A DNA stretch of 64,000 bases from Mesorhizobium sp. (lineage in GTDB: Bacteria > Pseudomonadota > Alphaproteobacteria > Rhizobiales > Rhizobiaceae): assembly GCA_004017535.1 (NCBI GenBank), contig SAJS01000010.1, positions 62,001 through 126,000 of the forward strand, given 5' to 3'. The notes under the pieces were generated by a model. It saw only the letters and a program-made list of their open reading frames with translations. It was not told where the DNA came from and ran no database searches. Below are positions 9,806 through 42,414 of the stretch, one piece after another. The translations under genes were made by a program, and so were the position numbers. Position 1 is the first letter of the stretch. Every line of letters begins with the position of its first letter.

Positions 9806-9830
9806 AACCTCTCGTTGACCGGTTTGTTCC
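9806..9830 (-). promoter_or_regulatory. EcfG-type promoter of the DUF892 gene
   Basis: On the minus strand GGAAC, 16 bases, GGTT. This matches the alphaproteobacterial general stress sigma factor consensus GGAAC-N16/17-CGTT in spacing and in the invariant GTT. Confidence 0.75.
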
Positions 9831-10129
9831 TCGCTCACGGCCCCAGTGGCAAACGAATGCGTCGCACGTTTCAGCCTTCGCCGTTTGACGCTGATAGTTG
9901 CACCCTCATGTGGCAGCGTTTTCGCCCCTTTGAAGCTACCGCCCCGGCTATAGCGGAGACCTACCGATCTGATGCCTGTAGCCAATCGGCGCAAGTGTGC
10001 AGCATCCCTACCATCCCGGCATAATCGCGAGTGGCAATCTCTTTGAGGCAACGGGTAGCAATCAGCAGCCCACCGGTTCGTTACGAAGCGCCATCGGCTC
10101 CACTTGGCTGCTCGCGCATGAAACCCCAG

Positions 10130-10154
10130 GGAACAACAGGAGGCCGTGCCTGTT
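10130..10154 (+). promoter_or_regulatory. EcfG-type promoter of the flavin oxidoreductase
   Basis: GGAAC, 16 bases, TGTT. The -10 element ends only eight bases before the preferred ATG at 10163, which implies a leaderless or nearly leaderless mRNA. Confidence 0.6.
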
Positions 10155-10162
10155 CGGCGGCG

Positions 10163-11092
10163 ATGATCGATCTGGGCATCAAGCGCTTTTGCGATGTCGC
10201 TGTCGTGGGAGGTGGTCCCGCGGGTCTCGCCGCGGCCGTCTATTTGTCCCGTTTCTTGCGTTCCGTCTTGGTCTTCGACGTTGACGACGGACGTGCGAAA
10301 CTCATTCCCAGGACCAACAATTGCCCAGGCTTTCCCGAAGGTATTTCCGGCAGGGATTTGCTGCACCGCTTGAGGGAGCAAGCTACCGCCTACGGCACCG
10401 AAGTCCTCTCGAGCGGCGTCGAGTCTCTTTCAGGACGTCACGGCGCGTTCGTTCTCCAAACCACTGCCGGCAATGTTCAGGCGTCCCGTATTGTGCTGGC
10501 GACCGGTGTCGTCGATCGGGCGCCCGCGATAAGCGGCCTTCGTAAGGCAATTGCGTCAGGAGCTGTCCGGCTGTGTCCTGTTTGCGATGCCTACGAGGTC
10601 CAGGGACAGCGCATCGCAATCGTCGGCCCGGACCACTCAGCTCTTAGAGAAGCATTGTATCTGCGGCGCTACAGCCCATGGGTATCTATCATATGCAACT
10701 ATCCCCAGGATGTTTCCGCTGCGGTACGCAGGGAGGCGCGGGCCGCCGGTATAGCGGTCTTGGACGCCGTTGATGACCTCGTCTTGCGCGAGGCCGGGCT
10801 CGATGTCGTCATGGCGGATGGATCGAAGACCGAGCGGATCGGCGTGCTCTATGCCGCAATGGGCTGCGACGTTCGATCGGAACTCGCCATGGATGTTGGC
10901 GCACACTGTGATGAAGAGGGCTACATTCTCATCGGTCCACACGCGCAAACCTCGGTCGACGGTGTTTACGCGATCGGCGATGTCGCCAAAGCGCTCAACC
11001 AGATTGCAGTGGGATTTGGCCAGGCGGCTCTGGCTGCCACCCACATTCACAACAGTCTGATGGCAGAGCAGGCTCGCGGCGGTAACGCATGA
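10163..11092 (+). CDS. Thioredoxin reductase-like FAD/NAD(P) oxidoreductase
   Basis: 309 residues when started at 10163. The N-terminus holds a Rossmann FAD motif VVGGGPAGLAAA (residues 14-25), residues 138-141 form a CPVC redox pair in the position of the thioredoxin reductase disulfide, and GVYAIGDVAKA near the C-terminus is the second FAD motif. The family passes electrons from NADPH through FAD to a disulfide; the partner thioredoxin-like protein is not in the window. An in-frame extension to 10031 exists, but the EcfG promoter lies inside it, so the short form is preferred. It converges on the DUF2243 gene. Confidence 0.83.
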   Translation: MIDLGIKRFCDVAVVGGGPAGLAAAVYLSRFLRSVLVFDVDDGRAKLIPRTNNCPGFPEGISGRDLLHRLREQATAYGTEVLSSGVESLSGRHGAFVLQTTAGNVQASRIVLATGVVDRAPAISGLRKAIASGAVRLCPVCDAYEVQGQRIAIVGPDHSALREALYLRRYSPWVSIICNYPQDVSAAVRREARAAGIAVLDAVDDLVLREAGLDVVMADGSKTERIGVLYAAMGCDVRSELAMDVGAHCDEEGYILIGPHAQTSVDGVYAIGDVAKALNQIAVGFGQAALAATHIHNSLMAEQARGGNA

Positions 11093-11186
11093 TCGTTCCA
11101 TCGGCTGAAGCAACCGACCTGAAACATCGAGTTTATGAAAACTGTCGGGACTGAGCCAACGAAAACGACTGAACGTGCTGCCTCGT

Positions 11187-11984
11187 TCAGGCGTTGAATC
11201 GCGACCAACCTAAGCAGCCGCCGACCAACGGCGATGTGCTGACCACAATGGCACCGTTCGCATGCAACTTGAATAGCCCTCCCCATGAGAGCGGCCCAAC
11301 GACCCACACCGATCCGTCGGAGCTGGTCCACTTTAAGCTCGTGCCGGCACCAAGAACCATCTGCATCATGGAGGCCGGCCTCATCCCCTCTTTAAACACC
11401 ACTATGGCTTCGTAGTTTCGGGTGAAGCTCGGTCCGAGCCCTGCCGTCAGTCCTGACAATATTGCGACGCTCATCAAGGCGGCGCCCGCGCTCCCACTTG
11501 CCACCCCGCTCCGGCTCGGGAATGCCCACGCGAGCAGCAAAGGTCCAAGCCCAAAGACAGCGAGCCACCCGACGTCCCAGGCAAGCGGAGTATCACTGTT
11601 CATCTTGATCCGATGGAGCCCCAGCAGCCAATGAAACACGGCCGCATCGACAACGTGCCACAAGCCAAACCCGACCAGTGACAGCCGCAGAATCTCACTT
11701 GTCGTGGCAATGCGCGAGTTGGTTGCGCGTGCGGCTACCAGCAAAATGGTGGCCAACACGAGCAACAGGTACATCGCTAGATGAAAAAGGCCGTCGGCCA
11801 CGATCTGGGCCCGCAGGTCGGACCCGGGAGAGAAGGCTGAGAGCAGGTGGTGCCACTGCAATATCTGGTGGAGAACGATACCGTCGAAAAAGCCCGCAAG
11901 CGCGAAGCCGACCAACAGCCAACCCCAGATCGCTTTGCGATCCAGGCGACGATGCGAGCCGTCAACAGCATCATGGAGCGACAT
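11187..11984 (-). CDS. DUF2243 polytopic membrane protein
   Basis: 265 residues with about seven hydrophobic helices and the family signature FFDGIVLHQILQWHHLLS near residues 33-50, in which conserved histidines sit at a membrane face. A second conserved segment, LWHVVDAAVFHWLLGLHRI, lies near residues 108-126. The function is unknown; members are often found beside cytochrome oxidase genes, as here, where ctaD is divergent. AGGAGG lies six bases before the ATG at 11984. The start overlaps the end of a small upstream membrane gene, so they form an operon driven by the EcfG promoter at 12170. Confidence 0.85.
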   Translation of the reverse strand: MSLHDAVDGSHRRLDRKAIWGWLLVGFALAGFFDGIVLHQILQWHHLLSAFSPGSDLRAQIVADGLFHLAMYLLLVLATILLVAARATNSRIATTSEILRLSLVGFGLWHVVDAAVFHWLLGLHRIKMNSDTPLAWDVGWLAVFGLGPLLLAWAFPSRSGVASGSAGAALMSVAILSGLTAGLGPSFTRNYEAIVVFKEGMRPASMMQMVLGAGTSLKWTSSDGSVWVVGPLSWGGLFKLHANGAIVVSTSPLVGGCLGWSRFNA

Positions 11985-12169: not shown

Positions 12170-12194
12170 AACCGATCATCGCTTCTGTTGTTCC
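12170..12194 (-). promoter_or_regulatory. EcfG-type promoter of the DUF2243 operon
   Basis: On the minus strand GGAAC, 16 bases, GGTT. It is back to back with the ctaD promoter 30 bp away. Confidence 0.7.
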
Positions 12195-12224: not shown

Positions 12225-12249
12225 GGAACAATGCTTTCAATGCCGGGTT
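12225..12249 (+). promoter_or_regulatory. EcfG-type promoter of ctaD
   Basis: GGAAC, 16 bases, GGTT, ending 61 bp before the ctaD start. Together with the minus-strand site at 12170 it makes a divergent stress promoter pair. Confidence 0.7.
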
Positions 12250-12295: not shown

Positions 12296-13969
<1,674 letters not shown>

Positions 13970-14163: not shown

Positions 14164-14188
14164 GGAACGAAAAGACCGATCGCGCGTT
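14164..14188 (+). promoter_or_regulatory. EcfG-type promoter of a receiver protein
   Basis: GGAAC, 16 bases, CGTT, a full consensus match ending 28 bp before the ATG at 14217. Confidence 0.75.
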
Positions 14189-14216: not shown

Positions 14217-14615
14217 ATGAGCATCGGCGCGGTTCTGGTCGTTGAAGACGAAACTATGATCTTGCTCGACCTCGAATCTGCGCTTGAAGAGGCGGGATTT
14301 CAGGTGGTGGGTGTCGGCACCGCTGCGGAGGCGATCACTGCCTTCGATGCCGACCCCGGCAATTTCAAGGCACTACTTTCTGATATTCGTTTAGGGCCAG
14401 GTTTGTCCGGTTGGGAAGTGGCTCGACATGTGCGGCAAACTAACTCCACGATACCGGTCGTTTATGTGAGCGGCGACAGCGCGGGCCAGTGGGGCGCGGA
14501 AGGCGTCCCGAACAGCATCATGATCTCCAAGCCATTCTTTCTGCCGCAAGTCATTACGGCGATATCAACACTGCTCAATGAGCAGTCGACCTCGGACGCT
14601 GGCACCCAAAGCTAG
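14217..14615 (+). CDS. Stand-alone response regulator receiver
   Basis: 132 residues, one CheY-like receiver with no output domain. Acidic pocket residues are E10 and D11, the phosphoacceptor is D56 in LLSDIRLG, and the conserved lysine is in MISKPFFLP near residue 116. VVYVSGDS holds the conserved Ser/Thr position. Single-domain receivers of this type pair with HWE or HisKA_2 kinases in Rhizobiales; two such kinases are encoded at 29.5 and 33.1 kb. Starts further upstream would pass through the EcfG promoter and are rejected. Confidence 0.88.
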   Translation: MSIGAVLVVEDETMILLDLESALEEAGFQVVGVGTAAEAITAFDADPGNFKALLSDIRLGPGLSGWEVARHVRQTNSTIPVVYVSGDSAGQWGAEGVPNSIMISKPFFLPQVITAISTLLNEQSTSDAGTQS

Positions 14616-15179: not shown

Positions 15180-15369
15180 CTGTCCAAACTCCGCGTCCGT
15201 GAAAGTCGCTCATGCCGAACGAACCCGCCCAACAGGCCGCTTCCGATCCGCTGGAACCTGCCCCATGTTCTGTGGTCGACCACTGCCCTGCGCACTTATG
15301 AAACCATCCCGCTGGGTGCCGAAGGGAGGCACCGGTACCCCGTTCCCAGGCCAGGCTCGACAGGCTTCG

Positions 15370-15555
15370 TCATCCTCGAAGCTTCCTCGCCTCCCGCTCC
15401 CAGAGTTTTCTTGTCGTTGCCGTGCTGTCGGATGAGTTCGCGGACTACCCCGGCGATAGCCGGTGCCTTTTCGCGAAATACTCGACTTCGTAATCTTCGG
15501 CTGCGGTGACCCGGCTACGATCGCGCAAGTTCCCCTTGCTCTTATCGTCTGCCAT
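15370..15555 (-). pseudogene. Frameshifted DUF3606 gene
   Basis: The ATG at 15555 opens MADDKSKGNLRDRSRVTAAE, typical of DUF3606 mini-proteins, but the frame stops after 36 residues at 15445. Shifting frame restores VRELIRQHGNDKKTL, the conserved second half (helix with RQHGN), and a further one-base shift gives EREARKLRG and a stop at 15370. Two single-base indels therefore separate the parts of a normal gene of about 60 codons. The EcfG promoter upstream is intact, so decay of the coding part may be recent. Sequencing error cannot be ruled out from the window alone. Confidence 0.7.
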
Positions 15556-15583
15556 TTTCGCATCTCCGGTCTCTCGCTCTCCG

Positions 15584-15608
15584 AACCCCGGCCGCAACCG
15601 GATGTTCC
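15584..15608 (-). promoter_or_regulatory. EcfG-type promoter of the broken DUF3606 gene
   Basis: Minus strand GGAAC, 16 bases, GGTT, ending 28 bp before the start codon. Confidence 0.7.
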
Positions 15609-16469: not shown

Positions 16470-17315
16470 TCATTCGGCCGCCTGTCGGTCGATCATCTGC
16501 TCACTCTGAGCACCCGAATCCGGCCTGGGTGGCGTTAGCACCGGCTCCTCGCCCATCGCCACGCCATCGACAAGCGAGAACTCGCCCTTGCCGTCTATGG
16601 ATGGACCTTCGCTCCAGCGCCCCTCCGCCGGCTTCACGCCGTCGACGAAGCAATTGACGAAGGCATAGGACACTTCCTGCTGCTCTTTCTCCTGCGGGAA
16701 CGAGTTTGGAACCGGCAGGGAGGCCGCCATGCCGCCCATGTCCTCGATCGCGGCAAGCCATTGCTGCTGATGCATGGTGTCGCGCGCGATCAGGAAGGAG
16801 AGCATATCCTTCATGCCGGGATCGTCGGTCATGTTGTAGAGTCGGGTCGCAAGCACGCGCCCACTGCCCTCCGCGGTGACGTTTGCCACCATGTCGGCGG
16901 CGAGATTGCCGCTGGCATAGACATGCGAGGCGTTGAAGGGAACACCGTTTGAATTTTCCGGGGTCGCGGCAAGCCCGGTCGATAGAATGTGGCGGAAGTT
17001 CATGCCGTTGAGAACGGAGCCGCCGACGGCGTCCGACGAGATATCTTCCTGCAGCGACAGCGGCGCGCCTTCCAGATTGAGCGCCACGGCGGTCGCCAGC
17101 ATCTCGATGTGCGACAGCTCTTCAGTGGCGGTGTTCAAGAGCAGGTCGCGATACTTGGCAGGCCCCCGGCATCCCCAGGCCTGAAAGAAGTATTGCAGGG
17201 CGACACGGATCTCGCCCTCGACGCCGCCGATCGCCTGCTGCAGAGCGCGCGCGAAGACAGGGTTCGGCTTTTCCACCCTGACCGGAAATTGCAATTTCTT
17301 GTCGGTAAAATACAT
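16470..17315 (-). CDS. Manganese catalase
   Basis: 281 residues, normal length for the non-haem dimanganese catalases that split hydrogen peroxide. Metal ligands are visible: E35 (GEIRVAL), E66 and H69 (TEELSHIEM), E149 (TAEGSG) and H182 (TMHQQQW). The start at 17315 gives MYFTDKKLQFPVRVEKPNP, the usual N-terminus. It stands alone with its own EcfG promoter 27 bp upstream, in keeping with expression in stationary phase and oxidative stress. Confidence 0.94.
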   Translation of the reverse strand: MYFTDKKLQFPVRVEKPNPVFARALQQAIGGVEGEIRVALQYFFQAWGCRGPAKYRDLLLNTATEELSHIEMLATAVALNLEGAPLSLQEDISSDAVGGSVLNGMNFRHILSTGLAATPENSNGVPFNASHVYASGNLAADMVANVTAEGSGRVLATRLYNMTDDPGMKDMLSFLIARDTMHQQQWLAAIEDMGGMAASLPVPNSFPQEKEQQEVSYAFVNCFVDGVKPAEGRWSEGPSIDGKGEFSLVDGVAMGEEPVLTPPRPDSGAQSEQMIDRQAAE

Positions 17316-17341: not shown

Positions 17342-17366
17342 AACCTCGACCATTTTACTTTGTTCC
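17342..17366 (-). promoter_or_regulatory. EcfG-type promoter of Mn-catalase
   Basis: Minus strand GGAAC, 16 bases, GGTT. Confidence 0.75.
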
Positions 17367-17383: not shown

Positions 17384-18364
17384 TCAGACTGAGCCGCTTG
17401 GCTCCGCCCCATTACCAACGCCCGCAAGTGCCGCAATCTTGTCGATCATGGCTAAGATCGCCTCAGGCCTGCTTTGATGCACCATGTGCCCGGCGTCCGG
17501 GACGATATCGACCAGCGCCTGGCTTATCTCGGATTGCAGGCGCAGCGCCTGGGCCTTGGCATCGAACAGCTGATCGCCGGCGCCGGCAATTATCCCGACA
17601 GGGATGGCGACGTCGGAATATCGGCGATTTGGTAAAAGTGCCGATGCCAGCATCAGGAAGGATTCAGCGGAGATGGATCGCAGTTGCGAGGGCCGGCTCG
17701 CCAACTCTCTTGTCATCGCAGCGAAGGGCACAGCGATTGTTGCCGGATGAAAAATCTTCCTCATCGCCCAACGCCAGTTCAGCCTGACCAGCGAGGGCAG
17801 AACGGCGTGGCGCAGCACCGTTCCGAGCAGCGGAACCGCCGGCAGCGCGGAGACGGCAAGGGCCAGTCTCGGCGACGGGTAATGATAGCCGGCGACGACA
17901 ACGACGCCGGCAACCGACCGGGGATGCCGGCGCGCCATCTCGAGCGCCACCGCTGCCCGCCAGGAATGGCCGACAACCATGTAGCGCTCGATGCCGAGTT
18001 TCGTGGCCGCGGCATCGATGAGGTCGGCCTGGGCAGCTGCGGTCCAAGGTCTGCCGGCCGGGCGTGGGCTCATGCCGAAGCCGGGCCTGTCGAAGGCAAG
18101 TACGCGGTATCTGGCGGCGGCTCTGTCGAAGATGCCGCTTGTCGTGAAGTCTTGCGCCGATGCGCCATTGCCGTGCAACAGCAGAAGCGGTTGCCCGTGG
18201 CCGACCTCCAGGAAATGCAGCTTCGTTCCTCGAAGATGGACGAAGCGCCCGAGCGGACGCCCAGCCAACGCCCGCCTTGCGAGGATATTGTTGTAGAGCG
18301 CCAGCCCGACCGTTGCGGCGGCAAGAAATAGAAACAGGTACTTCCTGGGCCGGGCTGTCTTCAT
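17384..18364 (-). CDS. Membrane-anchored alpha/beta hydrolase
   Basis: 326 residues from ATG 18364. An N-terminal hydrophobic segment (YLFLFLAAATVGLALY) suggests an anchor or uncleaved signal. The fold is clear: LLLLHGNGASAQDF oxyanion loop, FDRPGFGMS, the nucleophile elbow GHSWRAAVALEMA, and the late histidine in DAGHMVH. The elbow is unusual: the family has GHSWGG or GHSWGA, and here the last glycine is arginine (CGG where GGG would be normal), which could hinder the tight turn. The start overlaps the stop of the small gene upstream (ATGA), so they form a two-gene operon. Confidence 0.8.
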   Translation of the reverse strand: MKTARPRKYLFLFLAAATVGLALYNNILARRALAGRPLGRFVHLRGTKLHFLEVGHGQPLLLLHGNGASAQDFTTSGIFDRAAARYRVLAFDRPGFGMSPRPAGRPWTAAAQADLIDAAATKLGIERYMVVGHSWRAAVALEMARRHPRSVAGVVVVAGYHYPSPRLALAVSALPAVPLLGTVLRHAVLPSLVRLNWRWAMRKIFHPATIAVPFAAMTRELASRPSQLRSISAESFLMLASALLPNRRYSDVAIPVGIIAGAGDQLFDAKAQALRLQSEISQALVDIVPDAGHMVHQSRPEAILAMIDKIAALAGVGNGAEPSGSV

Positions 18365-18578: not shown

Positions 18579-18603
18579 AACCATCCCCGCGGTGTCATGT
18601 TCC
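18579..18603 (-). promoter_or_regulatory. EcfG-type promoter of the hydrolase operon
   Basis: Minus strand GGAAC, 16 bases, GGTT. The divergent plus-strand site starts seven bases away. Confidence 0.75.
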
Positions 18604-18609: not shown

Positions 18610-18634
18610 GGAACAATGCTTCAACCATTGTGTT
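18610..18634 (+). promoter_or_regulatory. EcfG-type promoter of the ClpP-like gene
   Basis: GGAAC, 16 bases, TGTT, ending 26 bp before the chosen ATG at 18660. It forms a divergent pair with the site at 18579. Confidence 0.7.
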
Positions 18635-18659: not shown

Positions 18660-19262
18660 ATGGATCGACCATCACCCAGCAATCAGCAATCCACACGAGG
18701 CCCGGATCGACACAGGTTGCTGTTGGATCCGAACTTACGGATTCATGGGCTGATCGACGACCGAGCAGTTATGAACTTCCTTGCCGATCTGAAAGAGGTT
18801 CGCAACGGGGAGAACGACCTCTATGTCGAGATCGACACGCCCGGTGGCGACGCGGATGGCGCGCGCCGCATGGCCCTGGAGATCAAGCTGTTCCTGAAAC
18901 ATTCGGGCCGTGCGGGATACGTCATCGGCAAGAATACGGTGTACTCTGCCGGCATCACGGTTCTAGCCGCGTTTCCGAAAAGCTCTAGGTATCTTTGCCC
19001 ACAGGCGGTCTTGCTAATCCACGAGCGCCGCCTTGAGAAGAACCTGGTGCTGAATGGCCCAATACGCGGGTGCCTTCAGATCATACGCGAGCAACTGGCG
19101 TTGTTGCAGACGGCGGAGCAACTCGAGGACGAAGGCTTTGCTGACCTTGTTCGGGGCTCGAGGTTCTCCCTCGACGAGCTTCGAGATCACGCGATGAACA
19201 GCTGTTATCTCTCGGCGGAAAAGGCGTTGGAGTTGGAGCTTGTCCAAGACATCGCTGACTGA
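18660..19262 (+). CDS. ClpP/S14-like serine protease
   Basis: 200 residues. The core resembles ClpP/crotonase-fold serine peptidases: LYVEIDTPGGDADGARRMAL, the serine in NTVYSAGITVLAAF, and the histidine in AVLLIHERR about 25 residues later. It lacks the N-terminal loops of housekeeping ClpP and has no adjacent ATPase, so it may act alone. The ATG at 18660 is preferred over upstream codons because the EcfG promoter ends at 18634. Its 3' end overlaps the GFA-family gene by 23 bases. Confidence 0.75.
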   Translation: MDRPSPSNQQSTRGPDRHRLLLDPNLRIHGLIDDRAVMNFLADLKEVRNGENDLYVEIDTPGGDADGARRMALEIKLFLKHSGRAGYVIGKNTVYSAGITVLAAFPKSSRYLCPQAVLLIHERRLEKNLVLNGPIRGCLQIIREQLALLQTAEQLEDEGFADLVRGSRFSLDELRDHAMNSCYLSAEKALELELVQDIAD

Positions 19263-21428: not shown

Positions 21429-21453
21429 AACCGCCCAGAATGATCTCTGTTCC
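21429..21453 (-). promoter_or_regulatory. EcfG-type promoter of leader copy A
   Basis: Minus strand GGAAC, 16 bases, GGTT; same position relative to the hairpin as in copy B. Confidence 0.7.
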
Positions 21454-22297: not shown

Positions 22298-22322
22298 AAC
22301 TATCCAAAATGATCACTGTTCC
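22298..22322 (-). promoter_or_regulatory. EcfG-type promoter of leader copy B
   Basis: Minus strand GGAAC, 16 bases, AGTT. Confidence 0.65.
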
Positions 22323-22427: not shown

Positions 22428-22453
22428 GGAACTCAATATTTCGTATTGGCGTT
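22428..22453 (+). promoter_or_regulatory. EcfG-type promoter, target unclear
   Basis: GGAAC, 17 bases, CGTT, the only site in the window with the 17-base spacing. Downstream on the plus strand there is only a possible 35-codon frame (22456-22563) that runs into the 3' end of the yihY gene. It could make a short RNA antisense to yihY, or be a chance match. Confidence 0.4.
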
Positions 22454-27250: not shown

Positions 27251-27259
27251 CGGCCGACA

Positions 27260-27727
27260 ATGACATTCAGGATAGGCATCATCTCTGACACCCACGGCCT
27301 GCTGAGGCCCGAGGCGGAACGACGCCTGGCTGGGGTAAACTACATCATCCACGCCGGCGACATCGGCAGTCCTGACGTTATTCCCGCGCTTCAGCAGATC
27401 GCACCGGTTACCGCGATCAGAGGCAACGTGGATACGGCCGGGTGGGGTTCGACCTACGCCGATACGGCGTTGGTGCGGCTGGCAGGCCGAACATTCTACG
27501 TCCTCCATGATCTGAAAACACTGCAGGTCTCACCAGCAGCACTCGATATCGATATGGTCGTGTCGGGCCACTCCCACGTGCCGAGACTCAAAACCGTTGA
27601 CGGTGTGCTCTACCTTAATCCGGGCAGCGCCGGTCACCGTCGTTTCAAGTTGCCGATCACGCTTGCGACCGTCGATATCAGGCCTGATGGGCTGCAGCCG
27701 GTCATTCACGATCTAAGTAGCGGCTAA
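27260..27727 (+). CDS. YfcE/MJ0936-type metallophosphoesterase
   Basis: 155 residues, complete for this small phosphodiesterase family. Metal motifs are in order: GIISDTHG (D and H), IIHAGDIG, IRGNVD, VLHD, VSGHSHVPR and the final NPGSAGHRR. The family hydrolyses phosphodiester bonds with Mn or similar metals; physiological substrate unknown. It starts nine bases after the RNase Z relic, so it may once have been its operon partner. Confidence 0.88.
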   Translation: MTFRIGIISDTHGLLRPEAERRLAGVNYIIHAGDIGSPDVIPALQQIAPVTAIRGNVDTAGWGSTYADTALVRLAGRTFYVLHDLKTLQVSPAALDIDMVVSGHSHVPRLKTVDGVLYLNPGSAGHRRFKLPITLATVDIRPDGLQPVIHDLSSG

Positions 27728-27912
27728 GGCGCTCGCATTCCAAGCGGGACGGCCAGCTTCGGCTCAAGGCACCGTCGGTGCGCGATCGCTCATGCGGCGC
27801 GGCAAGATGCGGCCGATGCGTCACAGCCTGGTCGACGTGCTCGGGTTCGAAATCACCCGCCGGAACCTTTGCGAGGTTAAGCCCTTCTCCTTCGAACATA
27901 TGGAGGTACCTG

Positions 27913-28407
27913 ATGGCGAATCTCGGAAGACTGGCGATCGCGATGCTTGGCGTTCTGGCGTACCAAAATCGCGACAAAATCGGCGAGTTGATCCGTGGGG
28001 CGGGCGATCGCAACCAAAACCACCCGCAAGGCGGGATTTTAGATCAGATTTCCAAAGGCGTTTCGGGGACCGCGCTCGGCGATATCTTAGATCGGTTCAG
28101 AGAGGCAGGAGCAGGATCCAAGGTGGACTCCTGGCTCGGCAGTGGGCCGAACCAGCCAATCGAGCCGAATGAGGTGGAAGCCGCAATAGACGAAGGCACC
28201 CTGACGTCACTGTCGATGCAGACCGGCCTGTCGCGCGAGGAGCTCGTCCGCAGGATCACTCGGGATCTGCCCGAGGCCGTCAACAAGATGACGCCAAATG
28301 GTGAACTGCCACCAGAGCCAACCCAACGCTCCGGTGAGACAACCTTGCTTGACGACGTGCCTCTGAATGGAACGCAACCTAAATCAACCACGCAAAACGA
28401 TGTCTAG
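27913..28407 (+). CDS. YidB-family (DUF937) protein
   Basis: 164 residues from ATG 27913, with GGAGG six bases upstream. The DUF937/YidB core is visible: QGGILDQISKGVSGTALGDI, VDSWLGSGPNQPIEPNEVEA and LSREELVRRITRDLPEAVNK with the MTPNGELP motif that ends the domain. Members are small soluble proteins of unknown role. Overlaps the next gene by 41 bases at most, suggesting co-translation. Confidence 0.85.
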   Translation: MANLGRLAIAMLGVLAYQNRDKIGELIRGAGDRNQNHPQGGILDQISKGVSGTALGDILDRFREAGAGSKVDSWLGSGPNQPIEPNEVEAAIDEGTLTSLSMQTGLSREELVRRITRDLPEAVNKMTPNGELPPEPTQRSGETTLLDDVPLNGTQPKSTTQNDV

Positions 28408-28861
28408 AACGACAGTCATCCGTCGGCCGAATATGCTAACTCGCACGGGGCCTGGCGGTGGAATACGTGGCCAGGGTCATGGGGGCGGCAAGGCAGCTAG
28501 CGTCGTTGCGGAACTGGATTTTTTGGCGGCCATGCTCGACTCGCGCTGGCGCATTCCCGGGACCTCAATTCGTTTCGGTCTGGATGCGTTGGTAGGTCTG
28601 GTGCCCATCCTCGGAGACGCAGCCACCAGCCTCGTGTCGGCCTATATCGTGTTGCGCGCCCGAAGCTGCGGCGCCGGAAATTTCTTGGTCGCAAGGATGT
28701 TGGGGAACGTCTTGCTTGATACGGTTGCGGGAAGCGTACCTATTCTGGGTTCCATCTTCGACGTCTATTTTAAGGCCAATAATCGCAACATCAGGTTGCT
28801 TCGTCAGCACCTGGCTAAGGCGGACATCAGCAGCCCACGCCCGGCAAAGCACCCGGCCTGA
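28367..28861 (+). CDS. DUF4112 membrane protein
   Basis: 164 residues from 28367; an internal ATG at 28400 is an alternative start and would reduce the overlap with yidB. The DUF4112 domain covers residues about 50-140: LDSRWRIPGTSIRFGLDALVG, LVPILGDAATSLVSAYIV and SVPILGSIFDVYFKANNRN, two glycine-rich hydrophobic hairpins. Function unknown. Placement behind yidB suggests an operon. Confidence 0.82.
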   Translation: MERNLNQPRKTMSRTTVIRRPNMLTRTGPGGGIRGQGHGGGKAASVVAELDFLAAMLDSRWRIPGTSIRFGLDALVGLVPILGDAATSLVSAYIVLRARSCGAGNFLVARMLGNVLLDTVAGSVPILGSIFDVYFKANNRNIRLLRQHLAKADISSPRPAKHPA

Positions 28862-29544: not shown

Positions 29545-30576
29545 TCAAGTCGTGAGCGGAATGACCATCTCCACCATTAAACCGGTGGCCGCATAAGTAG
29601 GTTCCACCTTGCCATTCAGATCGTATGCTATTGCCAACTGGATCAACTGGCTCCCAAAGCCCCTGGACGTAGGAGGGCTCACCCGAGGGCCCCCGCTTTC
29701 TGTCCATGTGAGCCGGAGGCGCGGGGTCTCGGCCTCCTCAACCTCCCAAAGCACATGAACTTGTCCGCCCGCTTTGGACAGCGCCCCGTATTTGAGGGCG
29801 TTCGTTGCAAGCTCGTGCAGTGCAAGCGCGAGCGACATCAATTTCTTGCTATCCAACTTAACAGGTGGACCCTTGTCGATCTTTATGGCGTTCGGACTTG
29901 CGGCAAACGGTTCGAGCGTACGCGCTATTAGCTCGGCGAGGTCGCCATCGCCGCCGCCGACGAACCCTTGGTCGTTGGCGTCCACAATGGCTGTAAGCCG
30001 TCCTAGAAAAGCCTCGCGATAAACCTCGGCCGAGACGCCTTCGGCCTTGGTCTGGTTAGCGAGAGCCCGCACCAGCCCGAGCAGGTTCTTCATCCGATGC
30101 CGGAGCTCGCCTAGGAGAATTTCAAACTCGACCTCTCTGCGGGTTCTGTCGCTTGCATCGACGAACGACACCAACATGGTGGTGCCGTTATCGTCCTGGT
30201 TGATGGTGCGCGCCGTAACCAGCATGGTCCGTTTTCCGATGCCGGGGAAATCGTGCTCCACCTTGTAGTCGATGACGGCGGTGCTCTTGGGGATCACGTC
30301 GGTGAGCAGACGACGCAGTTCGGGAATATCCCACTGGCCATCACCCAAGTCGTAAATACGCCTCCCGATGATGTCGTCGCGGTTCACTTTGAAGGTTCGG
30401 AAGAACGCACGATTGACGTCCTCGATGCAGAGGGCGCCGTCCAGCACAAGTAAAGGAAACGGTACAGTATCGACGACTCCCTGCGCCTGCACGTGGCCGG
30501 TCCTCAGGATCCGGTAGAGGTCTTCCAGGTGCACCATGGGGGGCTCCGCGGTTTTCGGGACCATCCTAATACTCAA
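29545..30576 (-). CDS. PAS-HWE histidine kinase 1
   Basis: 343 residues, no membrane segment. A PAS domain at about 35-145 (DTVPFPLLVLDGALCIEDVN, then the FVDASDRT PAC end) is followed by an HWE/HisKA_2 kinase: phosphoacceptor in LLGELRHRMKNLLGLVRAL, N box ALALHELATNALKYGAL and the W-E pair in LTWTESGGP. HWE kinases often feed the PhyR-NepR-EcfG general stress pathway in Alphaproteobacteria. The adjacent receiver gene is frameshifted. Confidence 0.88.
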   Translation of the reverse strand: MSIRMVPKTAEPPMVHLEDLYRILRTGHVQAQGVVDTVPFPLLVLDGALCIEDVNRAFFRTFKVNRDDIIGRRIYDLGDGQWDIPELRRLLTDVIPKSTAVIDYKVEHDFPGIGKRTMLVTARTINQDDNGTTMLVSFVDASDRTRREVEFEILLGELRHRMKNLLGLVRALANQTKAEGVSAEVYREAFLGRLTAIVDANDQGFVGGGDGDLAELIARTLEPFAASPNAIKIDKGPPVKLDSKKLMSLALALHELATNALKYGALSKAGGQVHVLWEVEEAETPRLRLTWTESGGPRVSPPTSRGFGSQLIQLAIAYDLNGKVEPTYAATGLMVEMVIPLTT

Positions 30577-32732: not shown

Positions 32733-33116
32733 CTAGCTTAGCGATAGGAGGTGTGCGAGCGCTCGGGTGTCTACCGGCTTCTCGATGCGCGGCACTTCGG
32801 CGTACGCTTCAGGGATGGACCAGACATCGTAACCCGTGGCAAAGATGAAGGGCACTTCACGTTCGCGCAGCGCGTCTGCGATAGGGTAGGCGCGTTCGCC
32901 GCGCAGGTTGATGTCGAGCACGGCGCCGTCGATCCGGTCCTCCGTCCCGAGCAGCTCCAGCGCATCCTCGATTGAGCCCACCGGGCCGATTACGTTCGCG
33001 CCTCTGTCTTCCAGCGCCCGCGCCAGTTCAGCAGCGATCATGTACTCGTCCTCGACCACAAGAAGATGGCGGCCACGCAGGGCATCGGGTTGCGGCTCAT
33101 CCATGTTGCTACTCAT
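32733..33116 (-). CDS. Response regulator receiver paired with HWE kinase 2
   Basis: 127 residues. HLLVVEDEYMIAAELARAL gives the acidic pocket, GAVLDINLRGE the phosphoacceptor aspartate, IFATGYD the conserved Thr and PRIEKPVDT the lysine. Receiver only, no output domain. The start lies inside the 3' end of the kinase gene (8-base overlap), so kinase and receiver are co-translated and almost certainly a signalling pair. Confidence 0.9.
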   Translation of the reverse strand: MSSNMDEPQPDALRGRHLLVVEDEYMIAAELARALEDRGANVIGPVGSIEDALELLGTEDRIDGAVLDINLRGERAYPIADALREREVPFIFATGYDVWSIPEAYAEVPRIEKPVDTRALAHLLSLS

Positions 33117-34527
33117 CCTTGGTCACCGGCACGACGATCTCGTAGCGCACCCCGTCCGATCCGAACTCGATCTTAGTTTTAGCGCCGAGTTCGTAGGGAA
33201 GCGCCCGCTCGAGCAATTCACTGCCGTAGCCCTTCCGGGTGGGGCCGCCCTCCGGCATCGTGACGCCGCTCTCGAGCCATTCAAGTCTCGCGCGTGCCTT
33301 CGACCCGTCGTGCTCTATATTCCAGCTAACGGCGAGCCGGCCCGACGGCTGGTGAAGAGCGCCGTACTTCACCGCGTTCGTCGCGAGCTCGTGCAGCGCT
33401 AGCGCCACGGATTGCGCTGAGATCGCCGGCAACGACGTCGCCGGCCCTTCGATCGTGACGTTGCCCCCGTCCACGCTTCCATCGCCGTGCGCGTGGAGCT
33501 CGCCTTCGATCAGTTCGCGCAGGTCGATCGGCTGATGGTCGGCGCGCGCGAGCAATCCTTGCACCCGCGAAAGCGCGCGTAACCGGCTCTCGTAATCCTC
33601 GGCAAACTCGTCCAGCGACGCGCTTGACCTCATCGTCTGCCGTGCGAGTGATTGGACAACCGCGATGAGGTTGCGCGTGCGGTGCTGAAGCTCGGCCAAA
33701 AGCACCTTCTGCTGGTCCTTCAGTGTGCGTAGGTCGTGGATGTCGGTTGAGGTTCCGACCCATTCGAGTGCCACGCCGCCGGCGTCGTCCAGCGGGACGG
33801 CCCGGGTCTGGTGCCATCGGTACTCGCCATCGACCGATCGGCGGATGCGGTGCTCGCAATAATATTCGCCTTTGGTCGGCGCGTCAGCCCAGGCCGACAT
33901 CGTCGCGTCGTGATCCTCAGGATGGACGGCATCGAGCCAGCCGAAGCCGACGCTGTCAGCAAAGGCCAAGCCCGTGAAGACACTCCACTGTGGACTACCC
34001 CAGGTCCGGTCACCGTTCGCCTTCGAGCGGAAGACGAGCTGCGGGATATTGGTTGCTAGGACCCGGAATAACTCTTCGCTCTGCTCAAGCTGTGCTTCGG
34101 CACGGTGCTGGGCGGTCCGGTCGCGTAGTATTTTGACGAAACCTTGGGTTCTGTCCGCGAGCGGCATCAGCAGCCCCGACGCCCAGAACCGCGTGCCGTC
34201 CTTCTTCATCTGCCAGCGCTCGTCCTCGGCTCGCCCTTCGGCCAGTGCGATCCGGCGCTCCTCTGCGGCGGCGCTAACTCCGCCCTCCTCCGGAGGAAAG
34301 GCTACATCGGCAGACTTCCCGATGATCTCGTCATCGGCATAGCCAAGCACGCGTTCGGCACCCACGTTCCAGCTCGTGGTGATCCCGTTGGGATCAGTGG
34401 TGAAGATCGCAAAGTCGGTCGCGCTGTCAAAGATGAGCCGCAATAGGTCGCTGTCACTGAGCGGCCGCTGACCTTCGCCTTGTTCGTCTTGTTTGTCACC
34501 ATTTTGCACGCGCGGTCTCCGGCTCAT
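33109..34527 (-). CDS. Double-PAS HWE histidine kinase 2
   Basis: 472 residues when started at ATG 34527. Two PAS domains (residues about 30-145: FAIFTTDPNGITTSWNVGAE; about 160-270: LEWVGTSTDIHDLR end) precede an HWE kinase: LLAELQHRTRNLIAVVQSL, N box ALALHELATNAVKYGALH and W-E in ARLEWLESG. The frame stays open upstream to 35001, but that part lacks domain features and contains an EcfG promoter, so the shorter start is chosen. Likely senses a soluble cue through PAS and feeds the receiver at 32733 or PhyR. Confidence 0.87.
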   Translation of the reverse strand: MSRRPRVQNGDKQDEQGEGQRPLSDSDLLRLIFDSATDFAIFTTDPNGITTSWNVGAERVLGYADDEIIGKSADVAFPPEEGGVSAAAEERRIALAEGRAEDERWQMKKDGTRFWASGLLMPLADRTQGFVKILRDRTAQHRAEAQLEQSEELFRVLATNIPQLVFRSKANGDRTWGSPQWSVFTGLAFADSVGFGWLDAVHPEDHDATMSAWADAPTKGEYYCEHRIRRSVDGEYRWHQTRAVPLDDAGGVALEWVGTSTDIHDLRTLKDQQKVLLAELQHRTRNLIAVVQSLARQTMRSSASLDEFAEDYESRLRALSRVQGLLARADHQPIDLRELIEGELHAHGDGSVDGGNVTIEGPATSLPAISAQSVALALHELATNAVKYGALHQPSGRLAVSWNIEHDGSKARARLEWLESGVTMPEGGPTRKGYGSELLERALPYELGAKTKIEFGSDGVRYEIVVPVTKDE

Positions 34528-34581
34528 GGCCGGCACGCACTCGCGGCCCAAATAAACGACCTTCAGCATGGATGAACGCCA

Positions 34582-34606
34582 AACTGCAGAATGCCCACAT
34601 TGTTCC
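34582..34606 (-). promoter_or_regulatory. EcfG-type promoter of HWE kinase 2
   Basis: Minus strand GGAAC, 16 bases, AGTT, 55 bp before the chosen start. Confidence 0.6.
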
Positions 34607-35204: not shown

Positions 35205-35441
35205 CTAGTCGAGAACACGAACCTCGAATGTGATGACGGCTTGCGCCAGATTGCGCCCGCTCTCGTCGCGGACGGTCATTGTCAGCTCGCGGTGTGTGCC
35301 TCCGAGCGGCACTTCGGCGGTCATCTCCATCAATGATCTCACCGCTTCAGCCTTGGCAGCTTCAAAGCTGGCAAGCTCAGTGCCTGCTTCGTCCGGGGAG
35401 CTCTCGCCGGTATCGCTAAAGTCGAAAAAGTACTTGGGCAT
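35205..35441 (-). CDS. DUF6894 mini-protein, copy 2
   Basis: 78 residues, MPKYFFDFSDTGESSPDEAG, with helix AAKAEAVRSLMEMTAEVPLG and strand ELTMTVRDESGRN, nearly the same as the protein at 14943. The close DNA-level similarity marks a recent duplication. Unlike copy 1 it sits behind a leader of about 190 nt with two hairpins and an EcfG promoter at 35640. Confidence 0.75.
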   Translation of the reverse strand: MPKYFFDFSDTGESSPDEAGTELASFEAAKAEAVRSLMEMTAEVPLGGTHRELTMTVRDESGRNLAQAVITFEVRVLD

Positions 35442-35480
35442 TGCCCCAACTCGCCACAAACCCAAATGCCCAACCATAGG

Positions 35481-35543
35481 CGGCCCGTATCGGGATAGAC
35501 GGGCCGTCGCATGAAAGAGCCCGCTCCAAATAGCGGGCTCTTT
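35481..35543 (-). promoter_or_regulatory. Two hairpins in the DUF6894 leader
   Basis: CGGCCCGT/ACGGGCCG (35481-35488 and 35499-35506) and the 12-bp AAAGAGCCCGCT/AGCGGGCTCTTT (35514-35525 and 35532-35543). The second resembles the hairpin at 40533 in stem and flank (GGAGGCCC just upstream in the transcript). It could end a short RNA or control translation. Confidence 0.5.
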
Positions 35544-35639
35544 ATCGGGGCCTCCTTGGGTGCCAGCGTCTCCCATCCTCCCGAATAATGGGGGCGACAT
35601 TCCTTTCCCCGACTGGCGCTTGCGCGTCACTGATTTTAG

Positions 35640-35664
35640 AACTCGTTAACATAGGTTGGGTTCC
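35640..35664 (-). promoter_or_regulatory. EcfG-type promoter of DUF6894 copy 2
   Basis: Minus strand GGAAC, 16 bases, AGTT, about 200 bp upstream of the start codon. Confidence 0.6.
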
Positions 35665-36155: not shown

Positions 36156-36699
36156 GGCGTCGCCGAACTGGCCGAAGCGAACGACCGGTTGGCACTCCGA
36201 GCTAGCACCGATCCGTTCACTGGCATCGCTAACAGGCGCTGGATGACGGAGACATTAGATAGGAATGGGGCGCAGAGACGCTGCTTTGGGGGATGCAGCG
36301 ATGCTGATGTGCGACATCGATTATTTCAAGAAGTTGAACGATCACCTAGGGCACGCTGAGGGCGATCGATGCCTAGTCGAGGTCGCAAGGATCATCCAGG
36401 ACAACATCAGGCGCGATTGCGATCCGGTGGCTCGCTACGGAGTCCTTCTACCGGGCGTTAACGAAGACGAGGCCTACTCTGTCGGCGAGCGTATCCGAGT
36501 GGAAGCCGCTGTCATTCACAACCCGGGATCGCGGATGTCCCGCCGAGTCACAATCGGCATCGGCGTGGCAGTTCAAACTGCAGACGAAGTGATCTCACCG
36601 GAGGAGTTGCAGCGTCCGGCGGGTGAGGCGCTCTACCGTGCTAAGCGGGCTGGACGTAATCGCGTTTTTGCTCTACGGACAAGGACCTTCCGAGCATAG
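36156..36699 (+). pseudogene. Diguanylate cyclase relic without GGDEF
   Basis: Starts abruptly in a linker (VAELAEANDRLALRASTDPF then TGIANRRWM), shifts frame near 36275, and continues AMLMCDIDYFKKLNDHLGHA, GDRCLVEVARIIQDN, ARYGVLLPG and RVTIGIGVAV to a normal end (YRAKRAGRNRVF). Where active enzymes read RYGG(D/E)EFAVLLPG this one reads RYGVLLPG: five residues including the catalytic signature are deleted in frame. With truncation, frameshift and active-site loss it cannot make cyclic-di-GMP. Confidence 0.8.
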
Positions 36700-36834
36700 G
36701 TCGGTTGGGTAGCGCCGCGCAGCTTCGTTGGAACCTGCGGGCCGATGCTGAAGCGCTAAGCTTCATGCGACTTTTCGTGGCATCGCCTTGAACGGGTGCG
36801 CAAGCGTGGAAGTGTCCGGTCGGATGCCTGCCTA

Positions 36835-37690
36835 AATCTCCTTCCACGTCACTGGAAGCCGCCCGGGCTCGCGGAGAAAAGGCGCCGACAGCGGTATTGC
36901 CTCGGCCGTTGCGGAGATAATCGACAAAAATGCGACCTCTGCGGGCTGCTGGGTCGGCCGACAGAAGGAAGTGCTCGGGATCCACGCGGATTGAGCAAGC
37001 GATTTGGCCAGCTGCCGCGCTCGGTCGTGAGTCGTCCGGACGGACAGCGCTGCGGTCAGGTGTAGACCTTTGCCGCCGGTGACCTTGGGCCAACTCTCCA
37101 AGCCAGCCGCTTTCATAATGTGACGCAGCCCGACCGTGGCCTCGATCACCGCGTCCCATGGCACGCCTTCGCCGGGACCAAGGTCTAGTGCGAGTTCGGC
37201 ATGTTCAATGTCGTCAATCGTGGCGTTCCACGGGATGAAGCTCGACGACCTCCATTTCGACCGAGCCAAGCAGCCCAACGAGATCGTCTACCCAGACGCG
37301 AACACCTTCGCCGCCTTCGCTTTTTGGACCCGCAACTGGTGCACAGAGGGTGATATCGGCGGCAAAGGTCCCTTGTGGTAGAAGGTGGCCCCGTAGGCGT
37401 TGCGACCAACTTCAATGGTCGGCGACCCAGATGGACGAGCGCTCAGTCGGCCACCCGTCGCCAGTGGCATGTCAGCTCTTCCTTGGACGGCGCGACCGCA
37501 TTGGGTAGCAGCTGAAGCATGTTTTCTAGCGGACGCCGTGCTTGCGTTCCGCCCGGCGCTTAGAAGGAGCCGGGGGTTTGACTGGAATTGGCTGAATATC
37601 CTCGCGCAATCCCTTGAACACGGTCCTCGCGCAAGATGCCCGAAACAGGTGCGACTTCATCAGCCGCTTTGCGTTTTGAAGCTTTGACCA
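36835..37690 (-). pseudogene. LigD (NHEJ ligase/polymerase) relic
   Basis: Segments of the bacterial LigD protein lie in order on the minus strand in several frames: FKGLREDIQPIPVKPPAP (ligase-polymerase linker, about 37600), GATFYHKGPLPPISPSVHQL (about 37390), WNATIDDIEHAELALDLGPG, SWPKVTGGKGLHLTAALSV (about 37080), RGRIFVDYLRNGRGNTAVGA (about 36930) and PVTWKEI at the end. The polymerase domain is recognisable throughout but broken by at least three frameshifts. No Ku gene is nearby. Confidence 0.8.
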
Positions 37691-38177: not shown

Positions 38178-38202
38178 GGAACGAGGGGTCTGGCCGAGCG
38201 TT
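38178..38202 (+). promoter_or_regulatory. EcfG-type promoter, full consensus
   Basis: GGAAC, 16 bases, CGTT, 28 bp before the ATG at 38231. Confidence 0.8.
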
Positions 38203-38744: not shown

Positions 38745-38940
38745 GACCACGCAGGCTGCGGTCGCGCCGCTGTCTACACCGCCTAGAGTTCTACACCGCC
38801 TAGAGTTCGGCAGCCGCTGCCCCGGATATATCGTTCTACACAATCCTCAATTGGTGGACTCGCGCGATGTATCGGCAGCTAGTGTGTTCCGCCGTCAGGC
38901 CAGTAGGAGGGCAATGCCTGCGGAAATCCGGGAGGAAACG

Positions 38941-39243: not shown

Positions 39244-39268
39244 GGAACCACATTCATCTCTTTGCGTT
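39244..39268 (+). promoter_or_regulatory. EcfG-type promoter of the GERH gene
   Basis: GGAAC, 16 bases, CGTT, a full consensus match 32 bp before ATG 39300. Confidence 0.75.
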
Positions 39269-39849: not shown

Positions 39850-39874
39850 AACTTAGCGCCGCCAGTGATGTTCC
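39850..39874 (-). promoter_or_regulatory. EcfG-type promoter of the coiled-coil gene
   Basis: Minus strand GGAAC, 16 bases, AGTT. Confidence 0.6.
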
Positions 39875-40679: not shown

Positions 40680-40704
40680 AACTTGCCTTGGGGTGCGATG
40701 TTCC
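40680..40704 (-). promoter_or_regulatory. EcfG-type promoter of DUF6894 copy 4
   Basis: Minus strand GGAAC, 16 bases, AGTT; about 100 bp upstream of the hairpin at 40533-40573. Confidence 0.6.
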
Positions 40705-40750
40705 ATTAGCAACATCTTGACGACGCCGGCTGCAGCGCCAGAGTCATGGT

Positions 40751-41332: not shown

Positions 41333-41523
41333 CGGGCAACCCGTGCAAGCTCTGCCGATAGCTGGTCAGGATCAATCAAGCCTCGTCCGAAAAGCCCCAG
41401 GACTTTAAGCGCTATGCGCTCGCGCTCATCCTTCCCTGCAACCCGGTGCTTGGCACAATAGTCGTTCAGGGCTTTCGTGAGAGTTGCGAGTTGGGCGGAA
41501 TCCGCCACACCGTATGCCGACAT
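41329..41523 (-). CDS. Conserved small helical protein, 64 aa
   Basis: MSAYGVADSAQLATLTKALN... with GGGGAG six bases before the ATG. The YCAKHRVAGKDERERIALKV and LFGRGLIDPDQLSAELARV segments match a rhizobial small-protein type built as 'DYC...ER...A..V..L...G..... L...L'. Function unknown; first gene of a two-gene operon. Confidence 0.6.
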   Translation of the reverse strand: MSAYGVADSAQLATLTKALNDYCAKHRVAGKDERERIALKVLGLFGRGLIDPDQLSAELARVAR

Positions 41524-41905
41524 GCTTGTCTCCCCGGACGGGGCGAAAGCATCATGACCGCTCCCAAGCATCCGCGTGCCTCTACCCAATTACAGACGAC
41601 GGGAAGAAGATACACCCAGAAAAAGTCAGAAACGAGTCCATTCCGTGCGACCTCGGTCGCACGTGAAGCGCATAGGTCCCTACCATGAAACCTATAGCCC
41701 GCTATCTCATTGTTTTTCCCGGCTGGGCGTTTTGAGTCCCTTTCGCGCCAGTCGAAGGGCCACACTAAAACACCCGCTGCGTCTTATGCAGATTTCAGCG
41801 GGTGTTTTTCGCCAACCCCTGGCACCCTTTGTCGCCGACCAGGCGCCGCGGCTGAATTAACTCTCGCACAAGCTTCGGCTAATACTCTCGGTCCAGCCTT
41901 AGTTT
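41524..41905. other. Spacer with a strong terminator hairpin
   Basis: CACCCGCTG (41771-41779) and CAGCGGGTG (41796-41804), flanked by AAAA and TTTTT, form a bidirectional terminator. No gene clearly ends here on the plus strand, so an unannotated short transcript from about 41.6 kb is possible. Confidence 0.5.
41767..41809. terminator. Bidirectional terminator hairpin
   Basis: 9-bp GC-rich stem with A-tract before and T-tract after; 16-nt loop. Could serve the minus-strand gene at 42071 or an unrecognised plus-strand RNA. Confidence 0.65.
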
Positions 41906-42100
41906 ATGGGAGGCCGAGATGCATCAGCCCACCAGACTCGAGAACCTGCAGTTCGCCAATCGATGCTGAAGGAAGTGCGCCGCAGGTTGGACGCATCGAG
42001 CGAGGCGCTTCTGACGTATCTACTGGACATGGCGGTGATCGAAGCTGACGAGCGCGCGAAGGCCATCCGGCTAGCTCAGCAGTCCAACCCGATGGTTTAG
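41906..42100 (+). CDS. Small protein with coupled upstream mini-ORF
   Basis: The conserved part is MLKEVRRRLDASSEALLTYL followed by LDMAVIEADE, a helical rhizobial mini-protein type. The nominal frame starts at 41906, but the better ribosome site (GGGAGGCCGAG) precedes ATG 41920 in another frame, which reads MHQPTRLENLQFANRC and stops, its TGA overlapping the ATG of MLKEV. Either a one-base frameshift has split the gene or the two frames are translationally coupled. Confidence 0.45.
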   Translation: MGGRDASAHQTREPAVRQSMLKEVRRRLDASSEALLTYLLDMAVIEADERAKAIRLAQQSNPMV

Positions 42101-42313
42101 TCTCCCCGGCTCCCCTCTCGGTCTATTCCTTCGGTCCGATGGCCGAACCAAAGGAGTCCGCACCGGCTTTTGCAGCAACGAGGCTGAGCGAATAATCGCG
42201 CTGAATCCCGTCTTCAGGCTTTTCACCGTGCGCCTGACGGAGCGCTCTGCCTTCTCGATTAGCCGGAGCGACATAAAATACTGCTTCCGGGAATTCGCTA
42301 GCTGCGGGTCCAT
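42071..42313 (-). CDS. Possible small helical protein
   Basis: MDPQLANSRKQYFMSLRLIE... begins like a helical mini-protein (LIEKAERSVRRTVKSLKTGF), while the C-terminal third looks non-coding. An ATG at 42274 with GGAAG upstream is an alternative start. A consensus EcfG promoter at 42390 supports transcription. Confidence 0.4.
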   Translation of the reverse strand: MDPQLANSRKQYFMSLRLIEKAERSVRRTVKSLKTGFSAIIRSASLLQKPVRTPLVRPSDRRNRPRGEPGRLNHRVGLLS

Positions 42314-42389
42314 CTCCTAAAGCCCAAGCCTGAAGCCCTTCCGCCCTACCCCAATTTCAAAATTGACCACACCCAAACGCGCCACCATG

Positions 42390-42414
42390 AACGTTCGCTT
42401 GTCTGGAATGTTCC
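42390..42414 (-). promoter_or_regulatory. EcfG-type promoter, full consensus
   Basis: Minus strand GGAAC, 16 bases, CGTT, about 75 bp upstream of ATG 42313. Confidence 0.65.

Follow-up and report, generated by a model that had tools for sequence, protein, structure and literature searches.

About half of completed alphaproteobacterial genomes carry extra copies of the general-stress sigma factor EcfG, an occurrence described in the accessible text of PMC3892343 as not satisfactorily explained, and systems with two EcfG proteins are already known (PMC3892343, PMC7083833, PMC4814048, PMC6180224). The available parts of PMC3892343 further report that EcfG2 of Rhizobium etli (PF00052, encoded on plasmid p42f) has neither nepR nor phyR beside its gene, shows limited overlap with the EcfG1 regulon and prefers its own promoter over that of ecfG1; a motif search found none, and the EcfG1 motif was present in one of 19 units. 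For RpoE5 of Sinorhizobium meliloti, the accessible portion of PMC6180224 gives one putative target, based on overexpression alone, and a NepR-like open reading frame (ORF) beside rpoE5. Here we describe a 64,000-nucleotide stretch of a Mesorhizobium sp. genome (6.86 Mb in 73 contigs), positions 62001-126000 of contig C1, referred to below as the window, in which putative EcfG-type promoters with the consensus GGAACA-N16-GTTCGG form a dense island. Sequence comparisons indicate that this and similar islands probably constitute an accessory general-stress regulon, with promoters that would be read by a second EcfG-like sigma factor, EcfG2, and not mainly by the canonical EcfG. No description of this element was found among the literature matches listed (titles and abstract openings, with subscription journals mostly outside).

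A sequence-only reading of the window had listed 21 sites between positions 9806 and 42414 (site coordinates here are window positions; in that list, minus-strand coordinates are the low ends of sites). All 21 are present: 20 have the form GGAAC-N17-GTT, and one, at 22428 on the plus strand, has N18 before GTT. None lies in a called gene, while an extra N18 match at 29605 on the minus strand, absent from the list, falls within one. The accompanying estimate of about one match by chance was borne out, with 20 GGAAC-N17-GTT matches in these 32.6 kb compared to 1.3 expected from the genome-wide rate of the reversed pattern. First-order Markov copies of the region (n = 300) gave a mean of 0.7 and a maximum of four, and a scan of spacings from 10 to 25 found enrichment solely at N17 to GTT (0-3 matches at other spacings). 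The whole genome has 315 matches (265 for the reversed pattern), which makes the window a hot spot, though one of several: among the stretches read, similar clusters lie at least at C1:56-161 kb, C9:2-25 kb, C6:52-75 kb, C71:24-51 kb, C11:907-965 kb and C33:290-323 kb. Those on C33 and C6 are nearer background in sequence, with GTTnGG in 2/17 and 2/8 sites, respectively. The C33 cluster has a further sigma gene about 9 kb away, at C33:281 kb.

Alignment of the 36 N17 sites outside called genes on C1:1-220 kb showed an A after GGAAC in 72%, followed across the spacer by C (56%), G (78%) and G (64%) after GTT, while C precedes GTT in 22%, which is no preference. The sequence-only reading had taken the sites to be canonical GGAAC-N16/17-CGTT promoters. 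The -35 element GGAAC (21/21, by construction of the search) and the spacing agree with this description, but the -10 CGTT does not: C precedes GTT in 5/21 window sites, compared to 10/10 sites at the core phyR-nepR-ecfG locus (Fisher 7e-5). Conversely, the window sites more often carry GTTnG (16/21 versus 1/10, Fisher 0.001), GTTnGG (14/21 versus 0/10) and A after GGAAC (16/21 versus 2/10, Fisher 0.006). A palindromic operator, suggested by the complementarity of GGAAC and GTTCC, was rejected, since just 3% of sites have the C that the dyad would need at the relevant position.

The exact 12-base motif GGAACA-N16-GTTCGG occurs 38 times in the genome compared to once for the reversed control, always within site clusters: 15 on C1 (10 in the window), 12 at C11:908-958 kb, eight at C71:27-51 kb, two on C9 and one on C6. 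When one mismatch was allowed the excess faded (110 versus 82), and a control with the spacing off by one gave 16 matches versus 10, with little clustering. That the sites arose by chance, from base composition or as copies of one repeat is barely credible. While there is paralogy among some islands (segments of 75-94% identity are common to the window and C71) and two of the window sites are alike, the excess is specific to one spacing, avoids called genes and withstands the controls, and the 36 aligned sites differ in spacer and flank. For seven of the 21 sites in the window, the fetched islands include a paralogous copy that can be aligned through the site (two of the seven, 21429 and 22298, being each other's partner), and all seven keep 12/12 motif bases while their spacers differ.

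The earlier statement that the window holds no ecfG or nepR extends to the whole of contig C1, on which neither a Sigma70_r2 nor a NepR match was found. Among the 21 Sigma70_r2 genes of the genome, none on C1, EcfG1 is encoded on C73 next to PhyR, an HWE-type kinase (these three named from sequence) and the single NepR match of the genome. A second EcfG-like gene, EcfG2 (C11:906796-907356), stands at the edge of the C11 cluster with its 12 exact sites. Its product is ~99% identical to EcfG2 of Mesorhizobium sp. ORS3359, and its best NCBIfam models are also the best for EcfG1, but it scores under their cut-offs (161 versus 270 bits). What we take to be region 4.2, with the presumed -35-reading helix, is nearly identical in EcfG1 and EcfG2, while the presumed region 2 differs. 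No nepR was found beside an EcfG2-type sigma gene by tblastn with the NepR of this genome across 80 EcfG-like loci and 10 plasmid stretches, a search insensitive to distant relatives, since it missed the NepR-like ORF reported beside rpoE5 in the pSymB stretch (accessible text of PMC6180224).

To compare across the genus, 119 evenly drawn genomes were divided by the presence of EcfG2 (match E <=1e-40, which also admits matches of 64-69% identity). Exact sites were far more numerous in the 55 EcfG2-positive genomes (median 10, mean 10.9) than in the 64 EcfG2-negative genomes (median 1, mean 1.2; Mann-Whitney 2e-19, which ignores kinship), with reversed-control means of 1.9 and 1.5. At least four exact sites were present in 46/55 EcfG2-positive genomes compared to 3/64 EcfG2-negative genomes. 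By comparison, canonical N16-CGTT sites were similarly frequent in both groups (median 92 versus 85.5, p 0.06). The sequence-only reading had the island rely on the main EcfG of the host; because the EcfG2 paralogue edges another cluster of variant sites and tracks them across the genus, the island probably relies on EcfG2 instead.

The flanks of named loci (80 kept of 155 EcfG2 relatives, up to 10 kb per side; many are close relatives, and their counts are not independent) were also compared. At 43 loci from Mesorhizobium and one Pseudaminobacter (L073-L115), 74 exact sites were found compared to none for the reversed motif; L116-L117 had no exact variant site. At 35 Rhizobium/Neorhizobium-type loci (L118-L152) there were no exact sites, but 100 N16-CGTT and 56 N17-CGTT, compared to six for the reversed N16 pattern; just one clade of these paralogues thus goes with the variant. 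Related arrangements occur on plasmids: Chelatococcus pCO-6 has GTTTGG just before the sigma gene, with two GTTCGG sites at most about 3 kb away, and several GTTnGG sites flank the EcfG paralogue of Martelella pMM593. On M. jarvisii pMJ700743a (L153, L154), a plasmid with trb conjugation genes, EcfG2, an HWE kinase, a ferritin-like gene, a YidB-DUF4112 pair and repABC lie close together, but no exact variant site occurs in the stretches read.

The zinc-dependent alcohol dehydrogenase family (ADH) gene of the window served as a test gene. It was found in 22/40 EcfG2-positive and 2/48 EcfG2-negative genomes (Fisher 7e-8), these samples being chosen: 40 of the 54 other EcfG2-positive genomes, biased in that the 14 left out were nearly all few-site genomes, and 48 of the 64 EcfG2-negative ones. 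A GGAAC-N17-GTT site lies <=400 bp upstream in 17/28 fetched ADH loci, never with C before GTT, and 11/28 have none.

Could the canonical EcfG1, controlled by PhyR and NepR, read all of these promoters, the changed -10 merely reflecting the known looseness of EcfG -10 boxes? We consider this unlikely, although several observations lean towards it or otherwise weigh against EcfG2 as the reader. The -35 and spacing are identical, as region 4.2 almost is, and flexible -10 boxes are on record (GGTT in Sphingopyxis, PMC7083833; C/GGTT in Methylobacterium, PMC4814048; both from the accessible text). In the 420 bp ahead of the sigma gene, on the same strand, none of 45 EcfG2-type loci (L073-L117) has a variant site, while three of them (L078, L080, L114) have a canonical-form N17-CGTT upstream of ecfG2, which would fit input from EcfG1. 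Flanks of the L073-L115 loci are also enriched in N16-CGTT (49 versus 20 reversed), and canonical CGTT relative to control is slightly higher in EcfG2-positive genomes (0.85 versus 0.76, p 8e-5). Residues that could set the -10 choice were sought in the EcfG paralogues and none was convincing; CGTT sites flank paralogues whose region 2 is almost the same, so that no residue explains the switch. The co-occurrence also has exceptions, as 9/55 EcfG2-positive genomes have fewer than four exact sites and 3/64 EcfG2-negative genomes have at least four, and the stretches read of the M. jarvisii and B2-1-8 plasmids, which carry close EcfG2 relatives, contain no exact site. Finally, both ADH copies in EcfG2-negative genomes have GGAACA-N16-GTT upstream (one GTTCGG, one GTTAGC), pointing to some independence from EcfG2 or to a sigma gene missed at the threshold, and the rarity of ADH itself without EcfG2 would fit sigma factor and cargo merely travelling together. 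Against a reading by EcfG1, looseness would not create a shared GTTCGG together with A after GGAAC, the ten core-locus sites are strictly CGTT, and EcfG2-negative genomes hold on average chance numbers of the variant.

A different factor, be it another ECF sigma or a DNA-binding regulator, is a distinctly improbable reader. The genome offers 21 Sigma70_r2 genes, and co-occurrence was tested for EcfG2 alone; yet the -35 and spacing match the EcfG group, one of whose sigma factors is encoded at the edge of a site cluster, and the asymmetry of the element is unlike a dimer site. EcfG2 is the probable reader. The features of the window are given below. Gene calls came from a simple caller of our own that misses short genes, and the ORFs after each site were therefore listed.

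9257-9778, minus strand: DUF892 (ferritin-like) gene (Pfam PF05974, E 2e-41)
9806-9830, minus strand: exact GGAACA-N16-GTTCGG site, 27 bp upstream of the DUF892 gene
10130-10154, plus strand: exact variant site; its paralogue at C71:41638 retains all 12 motif bases
10163-11092, plus strand: FAD/NAD oxidoreductase, thioredoxin-reductase-like (PF07992; TIGR01292 below cut-off)
11187-11984, minus strand: DUF2243 membrane protein (PF10002), behind a 54-aa first ORF
12170-12194, minus strand: exact variant site, paired divergently with 12225; the C71 copy retains the motif
12225-12249, plus strand: exact variant site; the C71 copy retains the motif
12311-13969, plus strand: cytochrome/quinol oxidase subunit I (PF00115, E 5e-157)
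14164-14188, plus strand: canonical-form site (CGTT), 28 bp upstream of the receiver gene
14217-14615, plus strand: single-domain response regulator (PF00072)
15584-15608, minus strand: exact variant site upstream of a 117-aa ORF (15210-15563) with no Pfam match
16470-17315, minus strand: manganese catalase (PF05067, E 7e-88; NF052557 just below cut-off)
17342-17366, minus strand: exact variant site; the copy at C1:157877-157904 retains the motif
18579-18603, minus strand: variant site (GTTGGG) before a 67-aa ORF, then an alpha/beta hydrolase (17384-18364)
18610-18634, plus strand: exact variant site, divergent to 18603; the C71 copy retains the motif
18660-19262, plus strand: ClpP-like protein (weak Pfam match, PF00574, E 8e-5)
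21429-21453, minus strand: exact variant site resembling 22298-22322 in sequence; downstream ORF weak
22298-22322, minus strand: exact variant site resembling 21429-21453 in sequence; downstream ORF weak
22428-22453, plus strand: N18 site (CGTT with N17 spacing); no ORF >=45 aa within 300 bp
24045-25220, minus strand: ADH gene (PF08240, PF00107)
25422-25446, minus strand: variant site (GTTGGG), 201 bp upstream of the ADH gene
25760-25784, plus strand: variant site (GTTGGG) upstream of a 156-aa protein (25830-26300) with no Pfam match
27913-28861, plus strand: YidB-like (27913-28407) and DUF4112 (28367-28861) genes (PF20159, PF13430), also on Mesorhizobium plasmids
29545-30564, minus strand: second PAS-HWE histidine kinase (PF07536); no listed site at its start
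32733-33116, minus strand: single-domain receiver (PF00072) overlapping the kinase gene 33109-34569; its PFIFATGY fits PFXFATG[G/Y]
33109-34569, minus strand: PAS-PAS HWE histidine kinase (PF07536, E 2e-22)
34582-34606, minus strand: variant site (GTTTGG), 12 bp upstream of the HWE kinase gene
35640-35664, minus strand: GGAAC-N17-GTT site (GTTCTA) upstream of a DUF6894 protein (35205-35630)
38178-38202, plus strand: canonical-form site (CGTT); small ORF downstream
39244-39268, plus strand: canonical-form site (CGTT); 117-aa ORF downstream
39850-39874, minus strand: exact variant site; 71-aa ORF downstream
40680-40704, minus strand: GGAACA-N16-GTTGAC site; downstream ORF weak
42390-42414, minus strand: GGAACA site with C before GTT (GTTCAT); 80-aa ORF downstream

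Nearly all sites had been placed within 200 bp upstream of a gene in the right orientation. In looser form this stands, as 20/21 have a right-orientation ORF of at least 45 aa starting within 300 bp, but chance alone often yields such ORFs at this G+C. More telling is that 11/21 sites lead to a gene with a Pfam match, two of them behind a short first ORF; nine lead to small unnamed ORFs or ORFs without a Pfam match, some of them weak, and 22428 leads to none. Several sites are just 7-14 bp from the first ATG, suggesting that the true start lies further downstream or that the message is nearly leaderless. The window yielded no matches in Rfam or tRNA scans.

The proposal that the island carries stress cargo is supported by its content: DUF892 ferritin-like protein, manganese catalase, YidB-like protein, HWE kinases and receivers are typical of general-stress cargo. 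Further cargo comprises oxidase subunit I, DUF4112, cold-shock, BrkB and three DUF6894 proteins, with another DUF6894 at 42718-43110. Signalling genes number two HWE kinases and two receivers. The receiver motif PFXFATG[G/Y] is taken from a title in the reference list of PMC5898713, and the accessible text of that paper places SdrG, a FAT GUY receiver, in a kinase-SdrG-PhyT-PhyR relay in Sphingomonas. By analogy, the kinase-receiver pair of the window may act like the SdrG relay.

Other features were noted within and beside the island. A 17-bp perfect tandem repeat (2.1 copies) occupies 38773-38808. At 36641-37278, parts of the LigD polymerase domain are each matched by one of two ORFs that overlap in different frames and look like a decayed ligD copy, a full LigD-type gene being present upstream at C1:54986-56812. 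Adjoining the island, a respiratory/nitric-oxide-type cluster without these sites (43896-63665; 10 proteins scanned, one without a match) encodes cytochrome c, COX2-like, COX1-like, UbiD and NnrS proteins, Crp-type and Rrf2 regulators and hemerythrin/ScdA.

The description of the island as mobile was upheld in part: conjugation genes lie nearby, but no integrase or tRNA was found and the contig resembles core chromosome on its far side. At C1:37-48 kb, 14-25 kb before the window start, TrbE-type and T2SSE ATPases, TraG and a DUF3363 protein with a weak relaxase match are encoded; the relaxase, coupling protein and type IV secretion system expected of an integrative and conjugative element were thus found there, outside the window. 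A crude motif scan detected no integrase, and no tRNA was found on C1:1-220 kb. From a reading of protein starts, the far end of C1 (pyrG, gltX, bamA and others) looks like core chromosome. A second conjugation-like module at C6:49-64 kb, 66-85% identical to that of C1, also adjoins GGAAC-N17-GTT sites. Within the window, a strawberry-notch-type helicase, a ParB-domain protein and an ArdC-type antirestriction gene stand in a row at 409-8131, a row typical of plasmids or conjugative elements. The phosphoesterase gene at 27254-27771 and the beginning of contig C1 are 91.5% identical, so the assembly may have broken at a repeat at that contig end.

These results support a model in which the island promoters keep the EcfG -35 (GGAAC, then A) and spacing, with nGTTCGG in place of the -10 CGTT, and would be bound by EcfG2, encoded elsewhere in the genome (C11) with no nepR or phyR beside it. 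When the cell is stressed, EcfG2-RNA polymerase would turn on the catalase, DUF892, the oxidoreductase and small stress proteins. The HWE kinase and FAT-GUY-type receiver, predicted to be EcfG2-driven as well, could feed back on PhyR. With part of the regulon adjoining conjugation genes, the cargo can probably spread, and would function fully just where EcfG2 is present. A wider form of this model, which we put forward tentatively as something short of a likely case, is an orthogonal accessory stress regulon in Mesorhizobium and relatives: EcfG2 would have its own code, GGAACA-N16-GTTCGG, the islands would spread partly on conjugative elements, the kinase-receiver pair would be plugged into the host PhyR, and the same code might serve R. 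etli EcfG2 and other plasmid-borne EcfG paralogues. If true, a stress regulon would here come as cargo that may be transferable and that needs an accessory sigma factor. A specific candidate promoter for one clade of EcfG paralogues also offers a direct experiment and a gene list for its regulon.

Compared to the canonical alphaproteobacterial general stress response (PhyR-NepR-EcfG), the system shares the -35, the spacing, the stress cargo and the HWE kinase and receiver inputs; it differs in its -10, nGTTCGG instead of CGTT, and in that no NepR was found beside the candidate sigma factor. S. meliloti RpoE5, the second ECF15 sigma factor, encoded on pSymB (accessible text of PMC6180224), is likewise an ECF15 paralogue on an accessory replicon; the 30 kb read around a pSymB homologue contain no exact variant site. 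Sphingopyxis granuli likewise has two paralogues, EcfG1 and EcfG2, with promoter-dependent relative use, but the available parts of PMC7083833 give them one shared consensus, GGAAC-N16-CGTT with a flexible -10, and describe no separate islands. A further parallel is R. etli EcfG2 (the p42f gene corresponding to PF00052 was taken from sequence), which, like EcfG2 here, has no nepR or phyR neighbour. Its gene adjoins a ferritin-like gene, an arrangement also seen on M. jarvisii pMJ700743a. The R. etli protein forms a long branch in the maximum-likelihood tree, where EcfG1 of this genome and several plasmid copies are also on long branches and placement is unsure. No such site was found upstream of the sole katG-like ORF located on p42f by sequence motif. 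Both exact variant sites of p42f lie <=10 kb from ecfG2 (with one mismatch, seven versus four in the control). Of its 40 GGAAC-N17-GTT or N17-CGTT sites in all, 22 are outside called genes and <=250 bp from a called start, and 12 of these 22 fall at 45-75 kb, around ecfG2. For R. etli EcfG2, for which the accessible text of PMC3892343 reports that no motif was found, the variant gives a testable candidate.

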